A DNA stretch of 64,000 bases, from assembly GCF_011065895.1 (NCBI RefSeq), contig NZ_JAALCR010000015.1, positions 1-64,000 of the forward strand, read 5' to 3'. This DNA is from Paludisphaera rhizosphaerae (GTDB taxonomy: Bacteria > Planctomycetota > Planctomycetia > Isosphaerales > Isosphaeraceae). Positions within the stretch are counted from its first letter, which is position 1, and every line of letters begins with the position of its first letter. Shown piece after piece: positions 22,717 through 32,300 of the stretch. Under the pieces are notes generated by a model that did no database searches, was not told the origin of the DNA, and was given only the letters and a program-made list of their open reading frames with translations. The position numbers were made by a program, and so were the translations under genes.

Positions 22717-22922
22717 CCGCCTTCGAGGTGCTTCGCCTCAAACCGCTGAGGGAGCCAGTTATTCCCCTCAACGGCGAATCATACGGCTTCCTGCAATCGT
22801 CGACTGAGGTTGGGGCTTGAACTCTCCGTGTCCAGGCATTACAGTTGTCGAAGTACATCTGTCGGAGAGTCGGTCCCCTCATCTTGACGCCCGTTCGGGC
22901 GAGACGTGTTGGGAGGGTTGCG

Positions 22923-24260
22923 ATGCACGAGTCGTCGTTGGCGCGAACCCGCCGTCGGGTTGGGGTGGGTATGTTCTGGCTGGGCGCGCTCGCGGTCGCC
23001 TGGATGGCGACGCCGGGGGTGCCTGTGATCTTCGCCCCGCGAGCCTCGGCCGAGATCCGGGCGGCGGGCCTGGAGTTGTTCGCGCACGAGTGGCAGCCTC
23101 ACGATCCGCTGGCCCAGGGCGACGGGCTCGGGCCGGTCTTCAACGCCCGGTCGTGCGTCGAGTGCCACTTTCAGGGGGGCGCCGGAGGAGGAGGCGACAA
23201 CCAGCATAACGTCATGGGATTCGAGGCGTTCCCGACCCAGGATCGGCCCGAGGTTAAAGGGGGCCTGATCCATCGCTTCGCCGTCGCCAACAACCTCCTC
23301 GACAGCCAAACCGAGTTGAGCAAGTGCTTCCCTGTCATCCCCAACGGGATTCGGGTCGAGGGCGGGTGCCAGGTCTTCACCCGGGACTTCGACCCGGTCC
23401 ACACCGAGGCCGTGAACTCCACCGCGCTCTTCGGGGCGGGTTGGATCGACCGGATCTCCGGCAAGACGATCCGCTACCAGAACCTGAAGGCCGCGACGGC
23501 GGCGATCGGCAACGAGGTCCGTGGCCAGCTCGGAGGGATCGGCACGGGGAGGCCGCGAGTGCTCGCCGACGGTCGCGTGGGCAAGTTCGGCTGGAAGGCC
23601 CAATTCGCCACGCTGGAGGAGTTCGTGGCGGCCGCCTGCGCCAATGAGATCGGCCTGGGGAGCCCCCACATGGCACAGGCGAAACCGATGGTCAGCCTGA
23701 AGTATCCGGAGGTCGAGCGCGACCTGACCGACGGCCAGTTCCGTTCGCTGGTCGCCTTCGTCGATACGATCCCTCGCCCGGTCGAGATCGCACCTGAAGG
23801 TCGTCCCCAGCAGCTTCGAGCCGAGCGTGGCAAGGCTCTATTCGGCGAGATCGGCTGCGCGGTCTGCCACATCCCAGACATGGCGGGCGTCCCGGGAGTC
23901 TACACCGACTTCCTGCTGCACCGGCTCGACGACCGATCCAGGTCGAGCGGGTATCGCGAGACGCCCCCGGTCCCGCTGCCGGAGGACTATCCGCTCCCCG
24001 CGGAGTGGAAGACGCCCGCCCTGTGGGGCGTGGCCGACTCCGCCCCCTATTTCCACGACGGCGGCTCGCCGACCCTGGATGCCGCCATCCAGCGCCATCA
24101 CGGCGACGCCGAACCGGTCACTGTGGCGTACCGGAATCTCTCCGACGTCGATCGAGCTGCTCTGATCGGCTTCCTCAAGACGCTCCGCGCCCCGACCGAC
24201 GCCGAGCCGGCCCTCATCCCGCCGACGGCGGCGAAGCCGCAACTGGCCTCGAACCGCTGA
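22923..24260 (+). CDS. Di-haem c-type oxidoreductase (DHOR family)
   Basis: A 445-residue exported protein starting at ATG 22923 with GGGAGGG upstream and a signal anchor at about residues 18-42. Two haem c sites are visible: C-V-E-C-H (after S-C, near residue 80) and C-A-V-C-H (near residue 320, in a segment G-K-A-L-F-G-E-I-G-C). The segment T-P-A-L-W-G-V-A-D-S-A-P-Y-F-H-D-G-G completes the second cytochrome domain. This matches the di-haem oxidoreductase (thiol-oxidoreductase-like) family, periplasmic enzymes often linked to metal or peroxide metabolism. Which redox partner it uses is not evident from its neighbours. Confidence 0.85.
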   Translation: MHESSLARTRRRVGVGMFWLGALAVAWMATPGVPVIFAPRASAEIRAAGLELFAHEWQPHDPLAQGDGLGPVFNARSCVECHFQGGAGGGGDNQHNVMGFEAFPTQDRPEVKGGLIHRFAVANNLLDSQTELSKCFPVIPNGIRVEGGCQVFTRDFDPVHTEAVNSTALFGAGWIDRISGKTIRYQNLKAATAAIGNEVRGQLGGIGTGRPRVLADGRVGKFGWKAQFATLEEFVAAACANEIGLGSPHMAQAKPMVSLKYPEVERDLTDGQFRSLVAFVDTIPRPVEIAPEGRPQQLRAERGKALFGEIGCAVCHIPDMAGVPGVYTDFLLHRLDDRSRSSGYRETPPVPLPEDYPLPAEWKTPALWGVADSAPYFHDGGSPTLDAAIQRHHGDAEPVTVAYRNLSDVDRAALIGFLKTLRAPTDAEPALIPPTAAKPQLASNR

Positions 24261-24313: not shown

Positions 24314-24453
24314 CGTTGGAGAAAGACCCCGCGCACGGGGGGAATTCGGCAAAGCCCAACGCATGTTCTAGTGTTGAACTAGACCCTGTCGAGGGCTTTC
24401 CTATTTCCACGCCCGTTCGCGGCGATGTCTCCATACACCCCAGGATGTCTCCC

Positions 24454-25290
24454 ATGAGAAGCCTGCCCAGAACTCGCAAGCCCCGCATCTCCGTGGAGTC
24501 GCTGGAAGGACGCGCCCTCCTCAGCGGCTTCGACTCGATCTTCGCTGAACTGGCCCGCTCGAAGGCGGCCATCGTGCAGAGGATTGCAACATCGGGTGTG
24601 AAGGTGGACACGGGGGCGGCGGCCGGGATCATGAGCGCCCTGGGGGGCGGCGCCGGCAGTGAGTGGGCGACCCTGATCAAGCGACAGGTCCGGAATTCTC
24701 AGGCGGTCGTCCGGCAGTTCGTGTCGGGTCAACTGACGGCCTACTCGACGACCGGGATCACGTTTCGAACGCCGCACGAGCAGTCCCAGTTCACCGGCCA
24801 GCCCTACGACCAACTCCTGCCGCTGGCGGCCGGCGGGGCGGTCTTCCGGGGGAACGTGCTGGAGTTCGCCACGATCCTGCGTGGGGAGTTCCGCGACCCG
24901 AACACCTCGTACTACGTCTTCGCCGTCGACCGCGGCGCGGGGGCCTCGCGTGGTGCGGTCTTCGCATCACGCCCCGGCATCACGCCCGACGCCCTGGTGA
25001 CGATCACCGTCGGCCCTTACGGCTCATCCGCCTCAGGCCAGATCCAGGACCTGACCGACGGTTCGGTCCAGACGATCGATCCGTCGCGGATCGCCATCCG
25101 GGGGGCGACGCTCCGGGTCTTCCTTGACGCCGGCCAACTCCCGACGCGTGGGGCCCAGCTCAACCGCTATCGGTTCGCCATGTGGACCCAGACTCAGCCC
25201 GGTTCCGACATCGCCAACGTCGCCAGCTTCGCTCCCGACGCGTCCATGATCCCGATCGCCGTTCTCAAGAACGTCTCCGTCCGTCGCTGA
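24454..25290 (+). CDS. Surface protein with a VESLEGR-type N-terminal motif
   Basis: A 278-residue protein. The start at ATG 24454 is preferred because AGGA lies 8 nt upstream; ATG 24445 is in frame too. The N-terminus has R-K-P-R-I-S-V-E-S-L-E-G-R-A-L-L-S, the motif found at the N-terminus of many large planctomycete surface proteins (LEPR-XLL-like), thought to act in export or sorting. The rest is Gly/Ser/Thr-rich and beta-prone, with T-I-T-V-G-P-Y-G and a long stretch without cysteines. No enzymatic motif is visible. It converges with the type III PKS gene. Confidence 0.65.
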   Translation: MRSLPRTRKPRISVESLEGRALLSGFDSIFAELARSKAAIVQRIATSGVKVDTGAAAGIMSALGGGAGSEWATLIKRQVRNSQAVVRQFVSGQLTAYSTTGITFRTPHEQSQFTGQPYDQLLPLAAGGAVFRGNVLEFATILRGEFRDPNTSYYVFAVDRGAGASRGAVFASRPGITPDALVTITVGPYGSSASGQIQDLTDGSVQTIDPSRIAIRGATLRVFLDAGQLPTRGAQLNRYRFAMWTQTQPGSDIANVASFAPDASMIPIAVLKNVSVRR

Positions 25291-25316
25291 CCGCTCCATA
25301 CCGCCGAGGGGCCCGT

Positions 25317-26423
25317 TCAGACGAGCAGGGCTCCCTCGGCCGCCAGGCCCGGCCCGAACCCCAGCGCCACGCAGGGCCGGGGGGCGTCGCGACGGATCAA
25401 CTCGTCGAGGATGAACAGGACCGTCGCCGACGACATGTTGCCGTGACGGGCGAGGACCGACCGCGAGGCATCGGTGGCGTCCGCCTCCAATCCGAGCGCC
25501 TCCTGCACGCCGACGAGGACGCGCGGCCCCCCGGGGTGGACGGCCCACGAGGCCACATCTTTTATCGCCAGCCCGCGCCCTTGGAGCCACGTCTCCAACC
25601 ATGGGGCGAGGTGTTTCTGGATCAGGCCCGGGACGCGCGTCGAGAGGACCATCTCGAAGCCGTGGTCGCGGACGAACCATGACATCGCCTGCTCGGAGTT
25701 CGGGAACAGGCAGGCGGCGTTGGCGGCCACGCGCCATCGCCGCGATCGATCGCCGCCCAGCGAGCCCGCCAGCACGGCGGCCGCGGAGCCGTCGGCGAAG
25801 AGGGCGTTTCCGACCATCCGCTTGGGGTTCCAGCCGTAGGAGTAATGGAGGCTGCAGAGTTCCACGGAGCAGAGGAGCACGCGAGCCTCGGGCTCGGCCG
25901 CGATCAGGCCCCGCGCCACGCGGAGCGCGTTCAACGCCCCGTGGCAGCCCATGAATCCGACGTTGGTTCGCTCCACCGTCGCCGGCAGTCCGAGCGCCTT
26001 CATGAGCCCGAAATCGACCCCCGGCGCGGCCATGCCCGTGCAGGAAACGGTGATCAAATGCGTGATTGACCCCGGGTCGACGCCGGATCGCTCCAGCGCC
26101 TGGCGGCTCGACTCGGTCGCCAGCGGCAGGGCCTCGACCTCGAACCGTTCCATGCGGCAGGCCGTCGAGGGCCCCGGGTCGCCGATCCCCTTGGAGATGA
26201 ACGGCGAGTCGTATTCGCCTTCGCCGTAGACGATCCGCCGGAATTCCTCGGGTCGGTAGACGACCTGCCGCGTTTCGACCCCCGATTGGCGGTAGAGCGA
26301 AACCAGCAGCTCGCCCTGGTCGTCGTCCTCCGCACAGAGGGCGCGGGCGGCGTCGACCGACTCGGATCGAGTGATATTCAGGGCGGGAGTCGCGGTCCCG
26401 ATCGCGAGTAGCTCGATATGCAT
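25317..26423 (-). CDS. Type III polyketide synthase (chalcone synthase-like)
   Basis: A 368-residue thiolase-fold enzyme. I chose ATG 26423 (GAGG 5 nt upstream); an upstream ATG at 26453 is possible, and the frame runs back into the preceding gene. The catalytic triad can be placed: Cys in V-G-F-M-G-C-H-G-A, His in V-H-P-G-G-P-R and Asn in H-G-N-M-S-S-A-T-V. The C-terminal G-F-G-P-G-L-A-A-E-G is also typical. Known: such enzymes extend a starter CoA with malonyl-CoA and cyclise it, often to pyrones, resorcinols or quinone precursors. Starter and product cannot be read from sequence. It ends an operon with the FAD oxidoreductase and the methyltransferase upstream. Confidence 0.93.
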   Translation of the reverse strand: MHIELLAIGTATPALNITRSESVDAARALCAEDDDQGELLVSLYRQSGVETRQVVYRPEEFRRIVYGEGEYDSPFISKGIGDPGPSTACRMERFEVEALPLATESSRQALERSGVDPGSITHLITVSCTGMAAPGVDFGLMKALGLPATVERTNVGFMGCHGALNALRVARGLIAAEPEARVLLCSVELCSLHYSYGWNPKRMVGNALFADGSAAAVLAGSLGGDRSRRWRVAANAACLFPNSEQAMSWFVRDHGFEMVLSTRVPGLIQKHLAPWLETWLQGRGLAIKDVASWAVHPGGPRVLVGVQEALGLEADATDASRSVLARHGNMSSATVLFILDELIRRDAPRPCVALGFGPGLAAEGALLV

Positions 26424-26467
26424 GGCGACCTCGGCGGGGCTTTCGAACGGCATGTCGAAGGCGATGT

Positions 26468-27601
26468 TCAGGGGGCTTTGTGCATAACCGATAGCAAGGG
26501 CCGCGCGAGCGACGGCCGGTATTCCAGGCACCGGACCAGGGTCCGCGTCATCCAGGGCGTGCGGAGGGCTCGGGAAGCGGCCCGGCAGACGAGTTGTCGA
26601 CGCGCGATCCGCGTCCGATAAACGTGGGACCAGCGGGCTGCCGGGGAGTCCTCGAGGCCGGAGATGGACTCGGCGAGAATCGTCGCGAGCGCCTCGCCGC
26701 CGGTTAGGGCCCAGGCCATCCCCTCGCCGGTGAACGGCTCGACGTAGCCGGCGGAGTCGCCGACTCGCAGCACGCCCGATTCGACGAGCCGATCGGGCGA
26801 CCGAGTCAGCAGCGCCGTCCCCTTCCAGGGCAGGGCGTCGACCCGCGGCACGGCGGGGAACCGGCTCTTTCCCAGGATCGACGCGGCGAGCGCCCCAATG
26901 CCGCCGGCCTCACGCACGGCGACCGGATTGAGCGCCGCCGCCAGGTCCAGCCGACCGTCTTCCAGGACGACCAGTCCCACGTACCCCTCGCGGCCGCAGG
27001 CCATGTAGATCCGGCCAGGTTGGAACCCCGCGGGGGGATGCGCGACGATCGCTCCGGCCCCGAGCTTGGCCTTTGGCGAAGCGGAGGTCCGGCTTCCAGC
27101 CGCGAAAAGACTGTCGGCCAATCCCGTCGCCGAGACGACGAACCGAGCGGCGACCTCGAACGACCGGCCCTCGCCGTTGAGGCGAAGGCGACTGCACCCC
27201 GGTGACGATCCGACGATCAGCCGTGCCGAGGTCCTTGGCTGAAACTCGGCCCCCGCCGCGACGGCCGCGTCCACCAACGCGGCGTCGAACGATTCGCGCG
27301 AGACGGCGACGCCGAGGTCGTGATCGACTGCGGCGCGGCGGTGACACGTCGCCAGCTCGATGCCCGTCAGAGGAACTGCGCGGAGGCGCGCGGTCAGCTC
27401 GCCCAGGCCTGTCCTGCCGAGCGCCGCCAGGGCGCGGGGATTGAGGCAGCAGCCGCAGACCTTGGTCCGGGGAAACTCGGCCCGATCGACGAGGAGTACG
27501 CGAACGCCGCGTCGCGCGAGTTCGCGCGCGGTCATCGCACCGGCTGGGCCGGCTCCAGCGACGACCACATCATAAGAGGGGAGGCCCGCGCCAATCGTCA
27601 T
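26468..27601 (-). CDS. FAD-dependent oxidoreductase, geranylgeranyl-reductase/halogenase-like family
   Basis: A 377-residue flavoprotein. The N-terminal dinucleotide-binding fold is V-V-A-G-A-G-P-A-G-A-M-T-A-R-E-L-A-R-R-G, with the acidic end of strand 2 in L-L-V-D-R. A C-G-C-C-L-N-P motif follows near residue 50. The second FAD motif is in V-G-D-S-A-G-Y-V-E-P-F-T-G-E-G-M, as in geranylgeranyl reductases and related monooxygenases. The gene starts one base inside the stop codon of the methyltransferase (TGATG overlap at 27599-27603), so translation is coupled. In the operon it probably oxidises or hydroxylates the type III PKS product; this is inferred. Confidence 0.88.
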   Translation of the reverse strand: MTIGAGLPSYDVVVAGAGPAGAMTARELARRGVRVLLVDRAEFPRTKVCGCCLNPRALAALGRTGLGELTARLRAVPLTGIELATCHRRAAVDHDLGVAVSRESFDAALVDAAVAAGAEFQPRTSARLIVGSSPGCSRLRLNGEGRSFEVAARFVVSATGLADSLFAAGSRTSASPKAKLGAGAIVAHPPAGFQPGRIYMACGREGYVGLVVLEDGRLDLAAALNPVAVREAGGIGALAASILGKSRFPAVPRVDALPWKGTALLTRSPDRLVESGVLRVGDSAGYVEPFTGEGMAWALTGGEALATILAESISGLEDSPAARWSHVYRTRIARRQLVCRAASRALRTPWMTRTLVRCLEYRPSLARPLLSVMHKAP

Positions 27602-28323
27602 CAGGACCGTCCCACCAGGAGAAAGCGGCAGGGCCAGCGGGGGATGACTTCGGGAGCCGACCAGCCAGCCTCCAGAGCCATCCGGCGGACCTCGTCGCGG
27701 GTGAACGCTCCCTCCACGGACAGAGGGCCGTCGACGTGGGCGACGGTCGATCGCGAGAGGATTCGGATGCCCGCATACGCCAGCAGCCAGCCGAGCCGTC
27801 CGCGCTCCAGGTCGTCGACCAGGACCAGCGATCCCGCCTCACGCATGGCCCGGAGCAAGGCGACGGCTGCCGGCGGGTCCAGGTGGTGGAGGAAGAGGGA
27901 GCACGTCAGGACGTCGAAGCCGGCAGGGAGCGGACCTGTCAGAGCGTCGTGTCGAAAGAAAGAAGCCTCGACCCCGGCGCGGCTCGCCTGTTCCGAGGCG
28001 TGCTGGATCGCGAACGGGCTCACGTCGCAGCCAGAGACCTCCAGCGGCAGGCCCTCGCGGCGAGCCCGGCGAGCGATCCGGACGGCGAAGTCGCCGCCGC
28101 CGCTCGCCACGTCGAGCAGCCGCACGGCCTCTCCGGGAGACATAGCAGCGCGCTGCCGGCAGAAGGCCTGGACCTGCGGCCAAACCGCCCGACTTCCCAG
28201 GCTGAAAGCGTTGACTCGACGAAGCGCCTCCAGGGCCTGCCGATGCTCCGCTGGGTCGAGGCCCGGTTGGTCCATCAATTCGGGCTGACGACGCCGCGTT
28301 CGGAGGTCGGGAGGGAGCGTCAT
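27601..28323 (-). CDS. Class I SAM-dependent methyltransferase
   Basis: A 240-residue methyltransferase. Motif I is R-L-L-D-V-A-S-G-G-G-D-F-A-V, motif II lies around V-S-G-C-D-V-S-P-F-A, and F-D-V-L-T-C-S-L-F-L-H-H-L-D is the post-motif region typical of small-molecule methyltransferases (UbiE/COQ5-like). I chose ATG 28323; ATG 28332, three codons earlier, is equally possible, as neither has a strong ribosome site. It heads the three-gene unit with the FAD oxidoreductase and the type III PKS. O- or C-methylation of the polyketide is the likely role, inferred from context. Confidence 0.88.
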   Translation of the reverse strand: MTLPPDLRTRRRQPELMDQPGLDPAEHRQALEALRRVNAFSLGSRAVWPQVQAFCRQRAAMSPGEAVRLLDVASGGGDFAVRIARRARREGLPLEVSGCDVSPFAIQHASEQASRAGVEASFFRHDALTGPLPAGFDVLTCSLFLHHLDPPAAVALLRAMREAGSLVLVDDLERGRLGWLLAYAGIRILSRSTVAHVDGPLSVEGAFTRDEVRRMALEAGWSAPEVIPRWPCRFLLVGRS

Positions 28324-28492
28324 GGCTGCCATGCTCACAGATGGATCGGGCCTTCTGAGAACCCTAGTATGGGGCACGGAGCAAGCCCCCGACAGAGGGA
28401 CGCGAAGTCCCAGTCCTCTGGGTCTTGCGCATCGCTCCGGCGACCGGGCCGGGTGTGAGAAAGCGAGGCTGGAATGGCTGTGGCTGCGGTCG

Positions 28493-29041
28493 TCACCCGG
28501 TTGTTCCTCTTCCCCACCGCCGCTCGGCCGCTCTCACAATTCCTCTGGCCATCCGTTGAAAGACCAGCCAGTGAGCAGGGTATGAGGCGAAGTAATAGAG
28601 CTGTCCCCAGAAGGGGATGGGCCGGAAGTAGACGGCCAGCCGCAGTTCCGACCTGTCGCCGTCGGGGTACACCAGGAATTCCAGCCAGGCCGTCCCTGGA
28701 TTCCTCATCTCGGCCCTGAGGAGCAGCCTTCCAGGACCGGTCCTCTCGACGCGCCAGAAGTCGACCGGGTCTCCGAGACGCAAGTCGACCGGACTACGAC
28801 GGCCTTTGCGCATACCCACGCCGCCGAGCAGGCGGTCGATCGCGCCGCGAAAGCGCCAGAGGGCGTCTGTGCCGTGCCATCCAGTCTCGCCCCCGAGACG
28901 CCGAACGCAATCGAACAGGATCTTGGATGGGGCGGAGCAGGGGATACGGTGCACGTCCTTGAGCGGAATCGCCGACGGATCGAACCGCCGAGAACGCGTT
29001 TCTTCCCGACGAGTCGTCGAGGGGTCTTCGGTCGTGGTCAT
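28493..29041 (-). CDS. DUF2867 domain protein
   Basis: A 182-residue protein. The central part matches DUF2867: A-L-W-R-F-R-G-A-I-D-R-L-L-G-G-V-G, then L-R-L-G-D-P-V-D-F-W-R-V-E, A-E-M-R-N-P-G-T-A-W-L-E-F, and a C-terminal Y-F-R-P-I-P-F-W-G-Q-L-Y-Y. Known: DUF2867 is often the C-terminal domain of short-chain dehydrogenase-like proteins and is related to the SRPBCC ligand-binding folds; here it stands alone. The frame continues upstream across the oppositely oriented dehydrogenase gene, but that extension is an antisense shadow. The ATG at 29041 is a natural start. It lies 170 bp upstream of the polyketide operon on the same strand and may belong to it. Confidence 0.8.
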   Translation of the reverse strand: MTTTEDPSTTRREETRSRRFDPSAIPLKDVHRIPCSAPSKILFDCVRRLGGETGWHGTDALWRFRGAIDRLLGGVGMRKGRRSPVDLRLGDPVDFWRVERTGPGRLLLRAEMRNPGTAWLEFLVYPDGDRSELRLAVYFRPIPFWGQLYYFASYPAHWLVFQRMARGIVRAAERRWGRGTTG

Positions 29042-29332
29042 GCCTGGGCTCTCCTCGCCGCGCGATTCGGCGGCGGTGGAGAGCGTTGCAGATCTGGGGC
29101 CGCGATCTCCGATGATCTGGAAAAGCAACGGCTGAAACGACGAAGCCCCAGAGGCCTGAATCCCGGACTCGCTTTGCCTCGACCGTCCACGTCCTTCCTC
29201 GGGCGCTGGGAGGAGGGTGACTCGTCCGAAGGCTTGCGGCCCCTTGATTTCCGTCGTCGGTTGGTCATGCTGGAGGGCGATTTCGACGGCTGTCGCCCAC
29301 CACCTTGTCCCTCCCCGCGTCGGAGCGTCGTG

Positions 29333-32300
29333 ATGTCGCAATTGAGGAAGTTCGGTCCCATGTGCATGGGGCTGGCGATCGCCGTTTGGGGGACGTCGCG
29401 CGTCGACGCCCAGCAGCCCGCCCCGGTCGAGAACGTGTCGACCTTCCCCCACCGATCGCCCCAGGACGAGCGCAAGGCGCTCCACGTCCCGCCGGGGTTC
29501 GAGATTCAGTTGGTGGCCGCCGAGCCCGACATCCAGAAGCCCCTCAACCTGGCGTTCGACGACAAGGGGAGGCTCTGGATTACCGACACGATCGAGTACC
29601 CCTGGCCGGCCAAGGACGGCGACAAGCCCCGAGACACGGTCAAGATCCTCTCCGACTTCGGACCGGACGGCCGCGCGCGCAAGATCGAGACCTTCGCCGA
29701 TGGGCTGAACATCCCCATCGGCCTTCTGCCGAAGCCCTCGGCGCGCGAGGCGCTCGTCCACAGCATCCCCAACATCTACCTGCTGAAGGACGCCGACGGC
29801 GACGGCAAGGCCGAGATCAAGGAACCGCTGTACGGGATCTTCGGCAACCGCGACACCCACGGCATGACCAACGCTTTCAGCTGGGGATACGACGGCTGGA
29901 TCTACGCCTGCCACGGGTTCTCGAACACCTCGGAGGTCTCGGGAGCCGACAAGAAGGCGATCACGATGAACTCGGGCAACACCTACCGGATGCGGCCCGA
30001 CGGCTCCCACGCCGAGTACGTCACCCACGGCCAGGTCAACCCGTTCGGCCTGGCGTTCGACGAAAGGGGCTACCTCTACTCGTGCGACTGCCACAGCAAG
30101 CCGCTCTATCAACTGATCCGGGGCGGCTACTACCCGAGCTTCGGCAAGCCCCATGACGGCCTCGGCTTCGCGCCTGAAATGGTCACCCACGACCACGGCT
30201 CGACGGCCATCTCGGGGATCGTCTACTACGCCTCGGACCAGTTCCCCGAGGCCTACCGCGGCACCACGTTCATCGGCAACGTGGTCACCAATCGGATCAA
30301 CCACGACAAGCTCGAGTGGACCGGCACCAGCCCGAAGGGGATCGAACAGCCCGACTTCGTCTGGAGCGAGGACAACTGGTTCCGCCCCGTCGACCTGGAA
30401 CTGGGCCCCGACGGCGATCTGTATGTGGCCGACTTCTACAACCGGATCATCGGCCATTACGAGGTGCCGTTGACTCACCCCGGCCGCGACCGCGACAGCG
30501 GCCGCGTCTGGAGGATCGTCTATAAGGGGGACGGCTCCAAACCCGTCTCCTCGCCTCAGGCCGTCGACCGGACCACGGCCGGCGTCGATTCGCTGATCGC
30601 CGACCTCGCCAGCCCGACGCTCCCCGTCCGCACGTCGGCGACGAATCAACTGGTCGAACGGGGCGGTGCCGAGGCGGCTGGGAAGCTCCGTGGGCTGGTC
30701 TCCCAACCCGGCGCGCCGGCGCAGCAGGTGGTCCACGCCCTCTGGGCCCTCGAACGGCTGGGCAAGCTGGACGACGAGCTATTGGTCAAGATTTGGAAGG
30801 GCTTCAGCGACCAGGCCATCCGGATTCACGTCCTCCGAGTCCTGGCTGATCGACCGTCCCTCTCCCCGATCGCTCGGGCGATCGCCCTGGAGTCGACCGA
30901 CGACGCCCACATCACGCGAGCGAGGGCCGAGGTTCTCGGAGCGCACCCGAATCCGGCCTTCGTCGCCGAGCTCCTTGGCCTCTGGCGGAAGACCGATCCG
31001 AAAGACACGCATCTAATCCACGTCATTCGGATCGCCTTGCGTGATCAATTGATCGATCCTGCCGTCTGGCCGCAGATCGCCGCAGCGCCGTTGGACGATC
31101 GCGATCGGGCCGACCTGGCCGACGTGGCGGTGGGGACGCCGAACGCAGCGGCCGCATCGTTCCTGCTCGCTCACCTAAGGAGTTTTGCGGAGAGTCCGGG
31201 GAACGTCTCCCGCTATTTGCATCACGTGGCCCGCTACGGGGAAGAAGCGGTCATTCCCTCGGTCTCGTCGTGGGTCCTCGCCGATCAAGCCTCGGCTCCG
31301 CGAAAGCTGGACCTCATCAAGGAGGTTCAGCAGGGACTGCAGGAGCGTGGCGCGGGCCTTCCCGATGAACTTCGGAAGGCCGCGGTCTCGATCGTGACGA
31401 AGGCTTTGACCGGGGCGAACGCCGGGCAGATCAAGCGTGGGATCGCGGCCATCGGGGATTTCCAGCTTAAGGAGTGCATCCCCTCTCTGGAGTCGGCCTT
31501 CGCTCGAACCGATCTTGCCGACGACGTGCGGGCCTCCACCCTGGCGGGGATCGCGGCGCTCGACATGCCGCTGGGCCTGGCGAAGTTGAAGAAGGCTCTC
31601 GACGACGGGACGCTCTCGCCTTCACTCCGTGAGGCGACCGCGATCTCGCTGGCGAATATCGACAAGCCCGAGGCGCGGGCCGCCGTTCTCGGCTCTCTGG
31701 CGACGGCGCCCGAGCGGATCCAGTCGACGGCCGCCGCGGCGCTCGTGCGTCGCAAGGACGGAGCTGCGGCTCTGCTTGAGGCGATCGCCGCCGGCAAGGC
31801 GTCGGCCCGGTTGCTCCAGCAGCGTCCGATCGTCATCGGACTGGAGAATGCGGGGATCGCGGACGTCGGCGACCGGATCGCCAAGCTCCTCGCCGGCCTT
31901 CCGCCAGCCGACGCCCAGGTCCGCGACCTGCTCGACAAGCGTCGCGAAGGCTTCCAGAAGGCGGCCTGCGACTCGACCGCCGGGGCCAAGACCTTCGAGG
32001 TCCGTTGCGGCGTCTGCCATCAGGTCGAGGGGAAGGGGGCGAAGGTCGGCCCGCAACTCGACGGCGTCGGCGGCCGGGGACTGGAGCGTCTGCTGGAGGA
32101 TGTGCTCGACCCGAACCGTAACGTCGACCAGATGTTCAGGACCACCGTCCTGGCCCTGAAGGACGGCCGGGTCGTCTCCGGGATGCTGCTCCGCGAAGAA
32201 GGAAAGGTCCTCGTCATCGCCGACTCCCAGGGGAAGGAGACCCGCGTCCCGGCTGATGAAGTCGAGGAGCGCAAGATCGTCCAACTCTCCCCCATGCCGG

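Follow-up and report, generated by a model that had tools for sequence, protein, structure and literature searches.

Genes at the locus

Four genes lie on the minus strand at positions 25317 to 29041 of the window, the 64,000-nucleotide stretch of Paludisphaera rhizosphaerae DNA that was analysed. In the direction of transcription, a gene for a free-standing, START/SRPBCC-like protein of the DUF2867 family (29041-28493; PF11066, 97.2 bits) is followed by three head-to-tail genes expected to form an operon. The first operon gene encodes a class I SAM-dependent methyltransferase (MT, 28377-27601; PF13649, 51.4 bits), the second an FAD-dependent oxidoreductase of the geranylgeranyl-reductase/monooxygenase superfamily in the position of HidB (27601-26468; PF01494, 70.4 bits), and the third a type III polyketide synthase (PKS) that is probably an alkylresorcinol synthase (26423-25317; PF00195, 88.5 bits, and PF02797, 78 bits). 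The Pfam matches of all four gene products exceeded the curated cut-offs. The gene names and coordinates of the initial annotation, which had placed the PKS, FAD oxidoreductase and MT genes in a tight arrangement with DUF2867 upstream, were right.

An overlap of the MT and FAD genes as TGATG, also reported there, was seen at 27603-27599; the MT stop codon occupies 27603-27601 and the ATG of the FAD gene 27601-27599. The MT frame reaches a GTG at 28377, and the likely start is an ATG at 28323 or 28332. The gap to DUF2867, which has the same orientation, is 169 bases from the ATG at 28323 or 115 bases from the GTG at 28377. The open frame of the PKS extends to a GTG at 26531 (404 codons). Its start, as judged from relatives, is most likely the ATG at 26423 (368 aa), since at L036 and L053 the frame is closed by a stop codon only shortly (a few codons) before the corresponding Met. 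With this start, the PKS gene would begin 44 bases past the FAD stop codon, without overlap.

The catalytic Cys, His and Asn, which had been described as all present in the PKS, correspond to residues 196, 332 and 365 of the 404-codon frame and were retained in all 59 aligned PKSs, that of the window included. The window PKS is the sole PF00195 match of the host genome. Against the NCBIfam models, the FAD protein scored 117.2 bits with TIGR02032 (cut-off 158.8) and the MT 220.2 bits with NF004851 (cut-off 243). The best model for the PKS was DpgA (144.3 of 425 bits); no model passed its cut-off, and hence no product is named by NCBIfam for the PKS. When the region 25000-29500 was scanned, no promoter-like site was found. 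The terminator scan of the same region gave two terminator-like sites, where 1.4 are expected by chance, and none was within the gap between DUF2867 and MT.

On the other side of the PKS, the window gene at 24316-25290 encodes a protein without a Pfam match that has the stretch VESLEGRALLSG near its N-terminus. A relative of this protein at locus L046 (73%) also adjoins a PKS and carries VESLEGRQLLSG. The protein encoded at 22845-24260 gave Pfam matches to a di-haem oxidoreductase and cytochrome c.

Conservation of the three genes and phylogeny of the PKS

Subsequently, the arrangement in relatives was examined. Among 45 Isosphaeraceae genomes, the window's included, a PF00195 match was found in 34. 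The 38 matches listed gave 37 loci other than the window's, all of which were fetched; several of these stop at contig ends (e.g. L039, L044 and L055). Six loci (L064-L069) resembled the window PKS weakly or not at all and were set aside, and 31 loci with a close PKS were left, whose PKSs were 40-80% identical to that of the window over the best segments. MT, FAD and PKS genes were found on one strand and in the window order at 28 of these 31 loci, and the operon was present in all five other genomes of the genus. The earlier proposal of a small polyketide operon is supported by this; of the two outcomes named there as jointly refuting it, an inactive PKS in vitro and a gene order not conserved in relatives, the second did not occur. 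The full arrangement was missing from L033, L034 and L050 (3/31), and no MT was found at the L050 PKS locus. At L033, which is a 4.8-kb contig, and L034, sisters in the PKS tree, an FAD match follows the PKS instead of preceding it and there is no MT match.

Across the phylum, a PKS search with a threshold of E 1e-40 gave matches in 102 of 392 genomes, the window's included. Of the best 29 phylum loci besides the window's, 23 had matches to each of the three proteins in the vicinity of the PKS and six had no MT or FAD match in the short stretches read, both counts referring to presence near the PKS, gene order aside.

A tree was built from 59 PKSs; L049 and L205 of the 60 loci, which had no PKS segment longer than 300 residues, were dropped. 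The window PKS fell in a clade of eight Isosphaeraceae rows (support 100/99) that comprises the window, four genus genomes and three other family members. To our knowledge, no member of this clade has been assayed. The fifth other member of the genus, Paludisphaera borealis (G028), belonged to another clade, made up of 20 family rows (support 100/99), and L033, L034 and L041 fell outside both main family clades.

The P. borealis operon lies on plasmid PALBO1 (NZ_CP019083.1, 87177-90144; L054/L207), and its annotation there shows the three genes in the window order with 4-base overlaps. This plasmid is listed in a genome paper on P. borealis from 2017. The three proteins of the P. borealis operon were 49% (PKS), 43% (FAD) and 50% (MT) identical to those of the window; the corresponding values for the four other genus genomes were 72-80%, 64-68% and 68-73%. 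Because the PKSs of the window and of P. borealis fall in separate clades and the P. borealis copy is on a plasmid, the sequences point to two diverged operon versions within one genus, one of them plasmid-borne. Horizontal replacement would be a simple reading of this pattern.

The DUF2867 neighbour

Since DUF2867 lies on the operon strand, 115-169 bases upstream, it could be a fourth pathway protein, whose START-like domain would bind the alkyl product or help to cyclise it; the initial annotation had likewise suggested a fourth function. The distribution of the family, however, did not support this. DUF2867 was found in 13 of the 45 family genomes; the window's was the only genome of the genus among them, the five others giving no match. 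No DUF2867 match was present in the 37 fetched family PKS loci, some of which stop at contig ends. In other family genomes with both DUF2867 and PF00195, the two are listed on separate contigs, except in G001, where a distance of at least about 2 Mb lies between them. In genome G029, a 73%-identical relative of the window gene at 24316-25290 is kept beside the PKS, yet no DUF2867 was found in that genome. Furthermore, no PKS, FAD or MT match at E 1e-5 was observed around 106 DUF2867 relatives, of which 29 were phylum loci read with short flanking stretches and 77 were genome loci read with at most 6 kb. Among phylum genomes with both DUF2867 and PKS matches (about 45 by eye, the window's included), the two genes came closest, apart from the window, in G404 and G068, at distances of approximately 13 and 17 kb, and this proximity was taken as chance.

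The domain architecture was also compared. An NmrA-like dehydrogenase part precedes DUF2867 in 104 of the 106 relatives, as judged by phmmer with the dehydrogenase part of Geothrix limicola L126 (E 1e-5 or better, the L126 query itself counted). Pfam names this part NAD_binding_10/NmrA in all four proteins scanned (L126, L085, L128 and L158), and finds DUF2867 alone in the exceptions L112 and L165. With the L126 part as the query, phmmer gave no match to the window's frame upstream of DUF2867; this lack of homology indicates that the window protein is free-standing, unlike those 104 relatives. The frame of DUF2867 stays open upstream as far as 30736, and a fused dehydrogenase in this stretch was considered and rejected: Pfam finds only DUF2867 there, the frame is antisense to a DUF7133 gene, and the L126 part has no phmmer match in it. 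A long open upstream frame is no valid sign of fusion in such G+C-rich DNA, where even the window gene is preceded by 579 open codons.

The AlphaFold2 model of DUF2867 (mean pLDDT 85.4, pTM 0.79) is predicted to have a helix-grip fold, and polyketide aromatase/cyclases are among its structural matches. The model aligned with the aromatase/cyclase ZhuI with a Z of 13.5 (rmsd 2.7 over 136 residues); however, the plant hormone receptor PYL10 gave the same Z of 13.5, and other ligand-binding proteins were matched too. With Foldseek, the best match had an E of 1.9e-05 and a polyketide aromatase/cyclase an E of 4.7e-05, and TM-scores were only about 0.5. No solved structure matched DUF2867 by sequence at E up to 1. 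The modelled fold is common and points to no specific function.

A gene for a lipid/isoprenoid-binding protein is mentioned in the 'Saltatorellus ferox' operon (PMC10896814), which would suit a fourth protein of this kind, but planctomycete PKSs expressed singly formed the ring without a DUF2867-type partner (PMC10896814). As DUF2867 did not recur beside a PKS in the loci examined, we consider it very unlikely to be a fourth enzyme of the operon. It is likewise very unlikely that DUF2867, nearly always the tail of an NmrA-like dehydrogenase, became free-standing in this lineage and was co-opted by the alkylresorcinol operon to assist the PKS in binding lipid or shaping the ring. From its distribution, DUF2867 was taken as an unrelated, non-conserved neighbour.

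Proposed function and comparison with known systems

The window operon fits the published three-gene description in order, strand, domains and catalytic residues: MT, FAD oxidoreductase and type III PKS lie on one strand with the PKS last, and the PKS has both N- and C-terminal chalcone/stilbene synthase domains together with Cys-His-Asn. In 2024, Milke et al. reported an MT-oxidoreductase-PKS operon for 58 of 96 planctomycete type III PKS genes (PMC10896814), a finding repeated in a review. In Corynebacterium glutamicum, 5-alkylresorcinols were formed by the PKSs of Gimesia maris and Rhodopirellula baltica, both from three-gene operons, by that of Stieleria maiorica, from a two-gene operon without the oxidoreductase, and by that of 'Saltatorellus ferox', from a different, five-gene operon (PMC10896814). 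Two planctomycete PKSs outside such operons gave no product in this host and the Saltatorellus ferox PKS alone also gave methylated products; hence, products vary among planctomycete type III PKSs (PMC10896814). Co-expression of the G. maris MT and oxidoreductase resulted in one extra methyl group, probably on carbon, and the role of the FAD enzyme was left open by Milke et al. (PMC10896814). The initial annotation had regarded the product of such clusters as not established. This holds from the sequence alone, but not for the operon type, whose products in other planctomycetes were published in that work.

Taken together, the window genes very likely represent the planctomycete MT-FAD oxidoreductase-type III PKS operon, a relative of hidABC that probably makes alkylresorcinols, with DUF2867 as an unrelated neighbour. 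For this copy, we infer the alkylresorcinol product and the FAD step by analogy. The PKS would most likely take up a long-chain acyl starter of about C16-C18 at its Cys and extend it with three malonyl-CoA units to a tetraketide, which would close by C2-C7 aldol condensation with loss of the carboxyl group to form a 5-alkylresorcinol. MT would then most likely methylate this ring, and a hydroxylation or oxidation by the FAD enzyme would probably take it towards a hydroquinone or quinone.

The PKS might also be an alkylpyrone synthase, which would release tri- or tetraketide lactones without closing a resorcinol ring. PKS18 of Mycobacterium makes alkylpyrones and was the second-best solved relative of the window PKS (phmmer E 9.3e-49), but the top solved chain, 4b0n, is another type III PKS (phmmer E 1.2e-49). 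Since the two are nearly tied, this ranking does not discriminate. Resorcinols are made by planctomycete enzymes of the same operon type (PMC10896814), and the pyrone product is considered unlikely.

As a probable alkylresorcinol operon, the window genes add a further example to a published operon type, beside a neighbour that is not conserved; the finding is real but ordinary. Alkylresorcinols are oily phenolic molecules, and three-gene sets of this type had already been described in the phylum; knowledge of the pathway itself is unchanged by the window operon. Isosphaeraceae examples are added to the phenolic-lipid pathway, namely a distinct clade and the plasmid-borne copy of Paludisphaera borealis. 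The natural role of this pathway in planctomycetes has been described as unclear (PMC10896814; PMC12078418).

Among known systems, the Planctomycetota mtr-fdo-t3pks operon resembles the window operon in having three genes in equal order with the PKS last, and in belonging to the same phylum (PMC10896814). The six expressed PKSs described for it came from Planctopirus, Rhodopirellula, Gimesia, Stieleria, Alienimonas and Saltatorellus, and none from the genus of the window (PMC10896814), whereas the DUF2867 gene upstream is a feature of the window. Milke et al. related the planctomycete operon to cyanobacterial hidABC (PMC10896814), the genes of the hierridins, which by description comprise MT, oxidoreductase and type III PKS in the window order (PMC8086630, PMC10896814). 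HidA methylates oxygen atoms, whereas the G. maris MT probably methylates carbon (PMC10896814). In the srs and ftp alkylquinone pathways, likened here likewise by description, a type III PKS makes alkylresorcinols, which are oxidised later (PMC10896814).
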